Source: Fluviicola sp. XM-24bin1
GTDB taxonomy: Bacteria; Bacteroidota; Bacteroidia; Flavobacteriales_D; Crocinitomicaceae
DNA: 64,000 nucleotides
Assembly: GCA_003149635.1 (NCBI GenBank)
Contig: QCWI01000014.1
Location: 1-64,000 of the forward strand
Direction: 5' to 3'
Shown: one piece after another, positions 15,771 to 19,123 of the stretch
Layout of the letters: the number at the start of each line of letters is the position of its first letter
Position numbering within the stretch: position 1 is the stretch's first letter
Position numbers and translations under genes: made by a program
Notes under the pieces: model-generated
Database searches by the model: none
The model's input: only the letters and a program-made list of their open reading frames with translations
Told to the model about the DNA's origin: nothing

Positions 15771-15840
15771 ACAAGTTGGTTTAACAGAAAATTAACAAAT
15801 ATCGTTCCAGATCCGAACACTAGTCTTATCTCTTTCAAAG

Positions 15841-16148
15841 TCAACTCATTCTACAATCTTCATAGTGTTGTTTTAAACCAATTAAGTCGCGAAGAAATGA
15901 CTTTCTCGCTGCCACTGAAAGCCTTAAACGAACTTGCTATGGCAAAGCGTTTAATTGTAGTCGTATTTTTTTTGAATTCACTTATCGCCGTCACATTAAT
16001 ACTCAATCGCAAAAATCAATCAACTCTCGATCTATTCGTAATCTTCATAGTGTTGTTTTTTAAAAAATCCTGGCGCGAAGAAATGACTTTTCCGCTGCCA
16101 CTGAAAGGCTAAAATAAACTTGCTAAGGCAAGGCCTTGCATTGTGGCG
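15841..16148 (+). repeat. Tandem direct repeat, two copies about 183-186 bases apart
   Basis: This lies in the 418-base gap between 15771 and 16188, which has no confident gene. Copy 1 spans about 15841-15964 and copy 2 about 16020-16148. Shared words include AATCTTCATAGTGTTGTTTT, GCGAAGAAATGACTTT, CGCTGCCACTGAAAG and ACTTGCTA.GGCAA. Corresponding positions fall in the same reading frame (for example GAC at 15899 and 16085). In that frame both copies would encode RRNDFxAATExLKxTCxGKA, uninterrupted in copy 1 but with stops in copy 2. Copy 1 is followed by a run of eight T. Both could be a decayed coding duplication or a structured noncoding element. Confidence 0.75.
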
Positions 16149-16157
16149 AAAAAGTCA
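16084..16157 (+). ncRNA. Candidate structured RNA element (nested stem-loop)
   Basis: Four nested pairings fit copy 2 of the repeat: TGACTTTT (16084-16091) with AAAAGTCA (16150-16157), GCCAC (16097-16101) with GTGGC (16143-16147), AAGGC (16105-16109) with GCCTT (16133-16137), and CTTGC (16119-16123) with GCAAG (16128-16132). Copy 1 keeps the apical CTTGC/GCAA stem but replaces the middle stem with a different pairing, TTAAACG with CGTTTAA, which suggests that base pairing is retained. It lies 31 bases upstream of the small ORF at 16189. No known RNA family is recognised. Confidence 0.4.
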
Positions 16158-16188
16158 ATGTGGTTGGCTCGAATTTAAAAACAATACT

Positions 16189-16392
16189 ATGAAAGATTAT
16201 TCTCAATTAAACGCTTATGAATTGAACTTCTACCGATCGAAGAAGTCATTATTTAACGACTTACTTCTCTTTCAATCTTTGCTAAGAAGTTCTGAAGAAC
16301 TCAATTTGAGGTATCATGGCAATGCAAAAGAGATTGCAGATGGATTGCAGCCTTGGATTGATGCTTTGCAGATTTCAATTCAAGAAGTTTAA
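16189..16392 (+). CDS. Small hypothetical protein
   Basis: 67 residues from the ATG at 16189 (MKDYSQLNAYELNFYRSKKS), predicted helical, with no signal peptide or membrane segment. The frame is open further upstream, but that extension lies inside the repeat element, so the ATG is preferred. A stem-loop terminator follows 3 bases after the stop. I do not recognise a family. Coding status rests on ORF length, composition and the downstream terminator, so it is moderate. Confidence 0.5.
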   Translation: MKDYSQLNAYELNFYRSKKSLFNDLLLFQSLLRSSEELNLRYHGNAKEIADGLQPWIDALQISIQEV

Positions 16393-16397
16393 GCAAC

Positions 16398-16427
16398 AAA
16401 AAAGCGCGGATCTTTCGAACCGCGCTT
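16398..16427 (-). terminator. Intrinsic terminator of pnp (possibly bidirectional)
   Basis: Arms AAGCGCGG (16402-16409) and CCGCGCTT (16420-16427) with a 10-base loop. On the minus strand the stem is followed by a U-run (A at 16398-16403). It also lies just after the small plus-strand gene. Confidence 0.8.
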
Positions 16428-18766: not shown

Positions 18767-19036
18767 TTAACGACGAAGTCCTAATTCTTTTACGATTGCA
18801 CGATATCTTTCGATATCCTTGTTTTTCAAGTAATCAAGCAAACTACGACGTTTACCTACCATCAATTGAAGTGCACGCTGTGTTCCGTAATCTTTACGGT
18901 TCTTTTTCAAGTGCTCTGTCAAGTGAGAAATTCGGTAAGTGAACAATGCAATTTGTCCTTCAGTTGAACCAGTGTTTGTATCTGATCCTCCGTGTTTTTT
19001 GAAGATTTCTTTCTTCTTTTCTGCGTCTAAATACAT
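18767..19036 (-). CDS. rpsO: 30S ribosomal protein S15
   Basis: 89 residues, the standard S15 length. It has the S15 pattern: GGSDTNTGSTEGQIALFTYRI, LTEHLKKNRKDYGTQRAL, then LMVGKRRSLLDYLKNKD and the end YRAIVKELGLRR. S15 binds 16S rRNA early in assembly of the 30S platform and in several bacteria represses its own mRNA. The gene has its own promoter at 19095-19123 and a terminator at 18708-18741. pnp follows on the same strand. Confidence 0.98.
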   Translation of the reverse strand: MYLDAEKKKEIFKKHGGSDTNTGSTEGQIALFTYRISHLTEHLKKNRKDYGTQRALQLMVGKRRSLLDYLKNKDIERYRAIVKELGLRR

Positions 19037-19094
19037 GCCAATATTTATGTAAATAATTTTTATGTACTGCTACCGTCTTTCGATAACAACGGTG

Positions 19095-19123
19095 CAAAGA
19101 TACGTTTTTGTTACAATTGACAA
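19095..19123 (-). promoter_or_regulatory. Promoter of rpsO
   Basis: CAAAGATA at 19095-19102 is TATCTTTG on the minus strand, an exact TAnnTTTG -7 element. CAA at 19121-19123 gives a TTG -33-like element with an 18-base spacer. The leader would be about 50 bases. Confidence 0.7.

Follow-up and report, generated by a model that had tools for sequence, protein, structure and literature searches.

A structured leader RNA that probably locks the translation start of small genes in a new multicopy family from Fluviicola and its relatives

Introduction

What is the duplicated stretch that lies directly in front of a small open reading frame (ORF) in the genome of Fluviicola sp. XM-24bin1? The DNA analysed here, which we call the window, comprises 64,000 nt (positions 1 to 64,000 of contig QCWI01000014.1), and the coordinates given for it follow this numbering. 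A preliminary description, made from the letters alone, had found two copies of an element in an otherwise empty 418-base gap and proposed a structured RNA, a mobile palindromic element or a decaying duplicated coding piece. We propose here that a new family of small genes, present in multiple copies, has this element as its structured leader RNA, and that the leader probably locks their translation.

Results and Discussion

Copy 2 folds into a leader that includes the start of the small ORF

The tandem duplication is real: the two copies are direct repeats (Table 1) whose first 20 nt are the same (20/20) and whose next 88 nt are 80% identical, and blastn aligns them with 82% identity over 104 nt (E 2e-22). 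They measure about 105 nt, not about 125 as first estimated, and their spacing of 185-186 nt refines the 183-186 of the preliminary description. As had been noted, no other feature was recognised in the gap. The peptide words common to both copies can also be read in the sequence; they are common because the DNA is conserved. A coding duplicate was thus rejected, since the common frame follows from DNA conservation and has stops within copy 2. A decaying coding piece is rejected as well: the relatives described below conserve base pairing, and selection on coding sequence acts on the ORF that follows.

Copy 2 (16045-16191) folds at -47.7 kcal/mol, compared to -29.4 +/- 3.5 for its shuffled versions (z -5.2; 0/200 shuffles). 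This fold contains the nested stems originally seen at 16084-16157, but the real structure is larger, because its outer stem encloses the start codon of the small ORF. The element does adjoin this ORF, as reported; what had been missed is that the ORF start is itself part of the fold. The leader plan consists of the outer stem P1, P2 (GGC/GCC), P3, P4 (AAGRC/GYCUU), a 9-nt bulge and the variable hairpin P5.

Table 1. Coordinates of the leader, its parts and the neighbouring features in the window
Feature	Position	Strand	Remarks
Gap with both copies	15771-16188		418 nt, from the minus-strand 483-aa frame to the ATG at 16189
Copy 1 similarity block	15855-15958		Direct repeat of 16040-16144
Copy 1	15855-15984	+	Truncated tandem duplicate of the leader
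Complete leader RNA (copy 2), P1 to P5	16038-16200	+	Ends in codon 4 of the small ORF
P1 5' arm	16038-16061	+	Antisense arm for the ribosome site, AUG and initial codons; from fold with flanks
Copy 2 similarity block	16040-16144		Direct repeat of 15855-15958
Conserved core P2-P5	16073-16171	+	R2 76.8 bits, R3 71.5 bits (not independent: the window sequence sits inside both models)
P3 5' strand	16084-16091	+	Partner 16150-16157; from fold
P4 5' strand AAGGC	16105-16109	+	Partner GCCTT 16133-16137; AAGRC/GYCUU in relatives
9-nt bulge, P4/P5 junction	16110-16118	+	Consensus about UAAARURAA, by eye from alignment
P5 hairpin CTTGC/GCAAG	16119-16132	+	Sequence varied in relatives, pairing kept
P1 3' arm	16175-16200	+	A-rich ribosome site, AUG and codons 2-4; from fold
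Small ORF, 67 aa	16189-16392	+	Predicted all-helical
Hairpin AAGCGCGG/CCGCGCTT	16402-16427	.	Terminator-like; in the convergent interval between small ORF and next gene (pnp, by eye); read from sequence

Copy 1 carries a 5' arm (15855-15874) identical to that of copy 2, but its likeness to copy 2 stops at 15958, and the P3 3' strand and the P1 3' arm are absent. The self-complementary words TTAAACG/CGTTTAA, on which a stem of its own had been proposed, do exist; taken whole, however, copy 1 has no better fold than shuffled sequences (z +0.8; 151/200 equally good). The two copies alone therefore give no covariation evidence, which is supplied by the relatives. Two observations concern these words: the TTAAACG/CGTTTAA hairpin, followed 11 nt on by a run of eight T (15924-15973), is loosely terminator-like, and 15945-15957 is a perfect 13-nt complement of 16204-16216 (codons 6-10 of the small ORF), which the words partly account for.

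The leader belongs to an RNA family that covaries

Below E 0.2, blastn of copy 2 against its own genome returned the window's two copies alone; among eleven weaker hits, two (on contigs C1 and C15) lie inside members later found by covariance model. The small ORF has two relatives within the genus (2/34 genomes, its own included), one belonging to genome G020 and the other being a second copy in its own genome (contig C19), and a protein search of 240 family genomes returned the same 2 genomes only. Both relatives encode proteins 52% identical to that of the window, and both have a similar leader upstream, ending at the ATG. Folded singly, the nearest relatives are weak (L025, z -2.1, 7/200 shuffles as good; L026, z -0.1, 85/200); a structure common to the three leaders emerges in the alignment.

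A covariance model of these three leaders (R1), against which the full leader scores 137.6 bits over 1-169/169 as one of the model's own sequences, found five further leaders, in each of which a variant of the core CUGAAAGGCUAAAAUGAA-hairpin-GCCUUGCAU is present, as well as a match in G151 at E 1. With seven sequences (R2), 16 matches were obtained in 6/399 genomes of the order, copy 1 included (23.7 bits). With 18 sequences (R3), copy 1 now being a member (46.7 bits), there were 54 matches in 14/240 genomes and 3/24 genera of the family, at most seven per genome, one of them likely false; note that model members match by construction, and that the covariance-model counts are likely low because the candidates scored per genome were limited. 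A sample of the class gave R3 matches in 4/305 genomes: its own, G453 (two copies), G486 and, weakly, G693, where the match (L166) is at the border of a 491-aa frame and probably false. Rescanning 51 loci yielded 55 matches, and 54 of them do not overlap a frame exceeding 200 codons; the exception, L134 in G017, falls within a 254-codon frame and is likely false. Hits on the reverse strand were also present and are ascribed to the palindromic outer stem.

In the seven-sequence test (a MAFFT alignment, whose structure was chosen manually using RNAalifold and single-sequence folds), 81% of the cells were paired and 15/31 pairs showed two-sided changes. The covariation score was 0.367 versus 0.148 after shuffling (0/500 shuffles); four of five measures gave 0/500, while 73/500 shuffles reached the remaining one, the count of further pair types, and sliding the structure as a control left 28-44% paired. 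The signal held in 18 model-fitted rows (83.2% paired; 24/31 pairs with two-sided changes) and in all 55 (83.5%; 26/31), where the score was 0.522 versus 0.181 shuffled, four measures again gave 0/500, further pair types were reached by 22/500 and slid versions were 29-41% paired; none of these controls removes relatedness. P5 (helix 3) had 96.6% of its cells paired in the seven-sequence alignment and 94.6% in the 55 rows. The idea of a structured RNA is thus strongly supported by covariation among relatives. P1 stands outside these pair counts and was tested separately.

As the preliminary description had suspected, the RNA matches no known family: a scan with Rfam 15 of the whole window, of 15771-16220 and of the loci of 16 relatives placed no family on the leaders at gathering or credible weak score. 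The single weak hit on a leader was the plant microRNA model MIR172 on L102 (25.2 bits, gathering 70, E 0.31), and the only gathering hit in the window was the S15-Flavobacteria ribosomal protein leader RF03161 at 19034-19102 (-), with 64.7 bits, whose presence suggests Flavobacteriia or a related group. Nor did literature searches among open-licence PMC papers, PMC2864571 included, turn up a description of the RNA.

Several other candidates were set aside. A DNA search of congeners gave 28 rows of short hits, two of which (L034 and L037) were inspected, found in or at coding sequence and taken as chance. Protein matches occurred in G400 and G338, the former antisense to a kinase-like frame and rejected. 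One viral pattern match (L109) was rejected because it is inside a frame of a viral contig, and two further viral patterns found nothing. No viral relative was found with the window protein set A1, and searches of phages and plasmids, for which the queries were the L025 protein and a leader from G010, returned a single weak phage hit (E 0.2).

The outer stem pairs with the start of its own ORF

In the window, the duplex of the copy 2 5' arm with the ORF start region has a computed energy of -24.7 kcal/mol. Over 46 ORFs, a set that includes one spurious ORF (behind an upstream L146 copy) left out of the 45- and 31-member sets below, the 5' arm paired with its own start region at a mean of -18.7 kcal/mol, compared to -10.9 for swapped partners (0/10,000 permutations). 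The 31 representatives with less than 50% protein identity gave -20.1 versus -11.8 kcal/mol (0/20,000), and codons 2-9 alone still gave -10.3 versus -8.2 kcal/mol (0/20,000); the own partner ranked best in 14/31. By these sequence statistics, the predicted pairing between 5' arm and cognate ORF start is specific. Pairing of the AUG itself was predicted with a probability above 0.5 in 39/45 leader ORFs versus 33/59 control ORFs, which is moderately above ordinary genes; since the AUG is also paired in so many of the latter, specificity, and not pairing as such, is the strong point. The six ORF-bearing copies of G075 have a weak P1 (-5.7 to -10.9 kcal/mol).

We propose that one unit consists of a rod-like RNA, about 140-200 nt long, with an ORF of about 50-80 aa immediately behind it. 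The 5' arm of P1 is antisense to the AUG of its own ORF and to the A-rich ribosome site before it, often also to several of the codons, so that translation start would be blocked in the folded state. Thus, the small genes would probably be kept off until P1 is opened by some signal. The P4-bulge-P5 module may be the recognition site, where a protein, a ligand or an RNA would stabilise or open P1.

The same module invites another explanation, which we regard as possible but hardly the expected one: a free-standing functional RNA, acting as a scaffold or in trans and bound by the small protein, with the overlap of P1 and ORF start reflecting processing or a shared origin. P4-bulge-P5 is the most conserved part of the RNA, is far from the start codon and is still recognisable while the proteins diverge, and in G453 and G486, outside the family, core matches occur without this protein type; moreover, small RNA-binding helical hairpins such as Rop exist. 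A free RNA would not need, however, a P1 that tracks the ORF start over 31 diverged genes, even in codons 2-9, and the net charge is negative in 35/46 listed ORFs. Note that in G453 the two cores (locus L168, 2446-2583 and 11979-12117) lie within a 1.4-kb repeat, 85% identical, where the usual small protein is absent.

The leaders precede small, diverged and probably helical proteins

In 45/55 matches, an ORF that starts with ATG and is 50 aa or longer begins within 23 nt of the core. The ten others are window copy 1, two upstream copies in L146, L123 (46-aa ORF), L111 (ATT at this place), L142, L145 and L149 (ATG frame short or absent), L158 (at a contig end) and the likely false L134. At L111/L107 (contig C5 of the same genome), a long P1-like pairing is present, ATT occupies the expected ATG site and the frame runs on for 59 codons; this leader adjoins a DnaA-like frame, judged by eye.

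The leader-linked ORFs range from 53 aa, in one truncated where its contig ends, to 83 aa, and their proteins fall into several subfamilies in alignments. AlphaFold2 predicted helices for the window protein (pLDDT 90.4, from a 3-row alignment) and a two-helix hairpin for one protein of another subfamily (pLDDT 87.4); with Foldseek, neither model had a significant match in the PDB (best E 2.7 and 5.3). By eye, the hydrophobicity of the leader-linked proteins is not that of membrane peptides. The dN/dS ratio over 11 pairs was 0.08-0.37 in 8, 0.72 in 1 and saturated in 2, and terminator-like sites lie behind 21/44 ORFs versus 12/225 random positions. Scans of Pfam (sets A1, A13 and A14), NCBIfam (A1 and A14), PADLOC (A14) and PHROGs (A1 and A14) found no family common to more than two members. 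The best matches were CueR (3.8e-5; 2/18 members), an anti-phage model (0.0012; likewise 2/18), BORCS6 (9.5e-5) and LmuB (0.00093); concerning one or two members each, they were taken as chance coiled-coil matches, though the best are not weak.

The standard -7 word of Bacteroidota promoters is TAnnTTTG. In the 110 nt upstream of 45 leaders this word occurred in 2/45, rarer than the shuffled mean of 5.1, and in combination with a -33 word also in 2/45 (shuffles: mean 0.7, maximum 3); these regions gave no promoter signal.

Position and size liken the family to several known systems. According to PMC2864571, many short ORFs in Cyanobacteria and marine sequences carry a structured RNA, the Downstream-peptide motif, in their 5' UTR. 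Our leaders resemble it (RF01704) by position, as they precede short ORFs in 45/55 matches, but they belong to other bacteria and their outer stem enters the ORF itself, and the RF01704 covariance model had no match in the window and the 16 relatives' loci. A metabolite-sensing riboswitch of this kind before small effector proteins would suit the conserved apical module, the start-codon lock and the many short ORFs downstream; we consider it unlikely, since the ORF directly behind encodes a small protein of no known metabolic family in the scans made and up to seven copies occur in one genome. Like ribosomal-protein leaders, such as S15-Flavobacteria RF03161, ours would be a cis-acting structured leader before a small protein gene, but a ribosomal protein family was not found and there are several copies per genome. 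Rop/ROM of ColE1 is similar in size and in the predicted two-helix hairpin; in contrast to it, the two models have no significant PDB fold match and the leader proteins are mostly acidic.

Tandem copies may provide a second lock

Truncated leader copies precede a complete one in the window and at L146 (three leader copies, about 150 nt apart), L153 (three) and L154 (two); at the last two, the upstream copies were missed by the model and found with blastn and reading. The energies of their arms with the ORF start were -21.8 (copy 1) and -24.7 (copy 2) kcal/mol in the window; -39.0 and -36.6 (upstream) at L146, where the local arm is weaker (-32.3); -32.9, -28.9 and -38.4 at L153; and -18.5 and -23.4 at L154. 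Random 50-mers had means of -8 to -12 against the ORF start, with 1% quantiles of -17.6 for the window and -20.0 for L154, which the upstream L154 arm fails; the quantiles of -36.6 for L146 and -32.5 for L153, the latter failed by arm L153 b, are probably inflated because the short backgrounds include the arms.

We speculate that the upstream truncated copies, in keeping the antisense arm, might provide a second, trans-acting lock. An extended version of this idea is doubtful in our judgement: a two-part system of an entirely new kind, in which a self-locking RNA would multiply together with a small helical protein, itself strongly diverged, the truncated tandem copies would act in trans through the antisense arm, and copy number would tune the lock. 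Duplication followed by decay accounts for the truncated copies equally well, and a function in trans is a guess.

The arrangement recalls toxin-antitoxin systems. The hok and dinQ/agrAB mRNAs of type I systems are start-locked and carry a small ORF, and here too there is a predicted start-locked mRNA with a small ORF and neighbouring partial copies with antisense words. A type I-like system, in which the structured, translation-locked mRNA would be countered by antisense RNA from the truncated upstream copies, is in our view improbable. It would fit the multicopy, patchy occurrence (14/240 genomes), and by the computed energies the truncated-copy arms in the window, L146, L153 and L154 pair with the ORF start, both upstream arms of L146 outpairing the local one. 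Type I toxins are, however, short hydrophobic membrane peptides, unlike these predicted helical hairpins, which are mostly acidic and by eye not membrane-like, and the truncated upstream copies, seen at a few loci only, may be decaying duplicates. In type III systems (ToxIN), tandem RNA repeats precede the ORF of an endoribonuclease. Tandem RNA repeats before one ORF were seen here at a few loci (the window, L146, L153 and L154), but the repeats are longer, those that are truncated were seen at a few loci only, and the ORF is small and predicted helical: no ToxN-type endoribonuclease was recognised among the downstream ORFs (53-83 aa; two models all-helical) in the sets scanned.

The window unit lies between two neighbours (pnp and the 483-aa gene, identified by matches and by eye) that are 195 nt apart in G020, compared to 675 in the window, and R3 had no match in 33 other loci, 29 of them pnp regions of other species and some ending at contig borders; the unit was therefore gained here or lost elsewhere. 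This empty site, the long inverted repeat and the multiple copies are what a mobile palindromic DNA element (a MITE or similar), the third reading proposed originally, would predict. We nevertheless hold this explanation to be very improbable: the inverted repeat bounds the leader only and not a whole moving unit, its 3' arm forms the beginning of a gene under selection, the P2-P5 pairs covary, and most copies are strongly diverged, though local duplication is seen. No target duplication was visible at the window site, where the flanks are too diverged to judge the borders.

As the leader of a start-locked gene family, the preferred reading, this RNA represents a structured class with strong covariation, absent from Rfam 15, and linked to small proteins with no consistent family in the libraries scanned. 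Since the leader marks the genes, it offers a way to find small proteins that are otherwise hidden in these bacteria. An antisense arm that tracks its own coding start over many diverged copies constitutes a natural test of start-codon locking in organisms not known to use a strong Shine-Dalgarno signal, and the truncated copies are a chance to follow a cis-acting leader that is possibly becoming a trans-acting RNA.

Finally, entire leader-plus-ORF units, about 475 nt each, are also found in tandem in G075; at L150 (945-2029) this array of complete units, with a period of about 475 nt, runs off the contig end.
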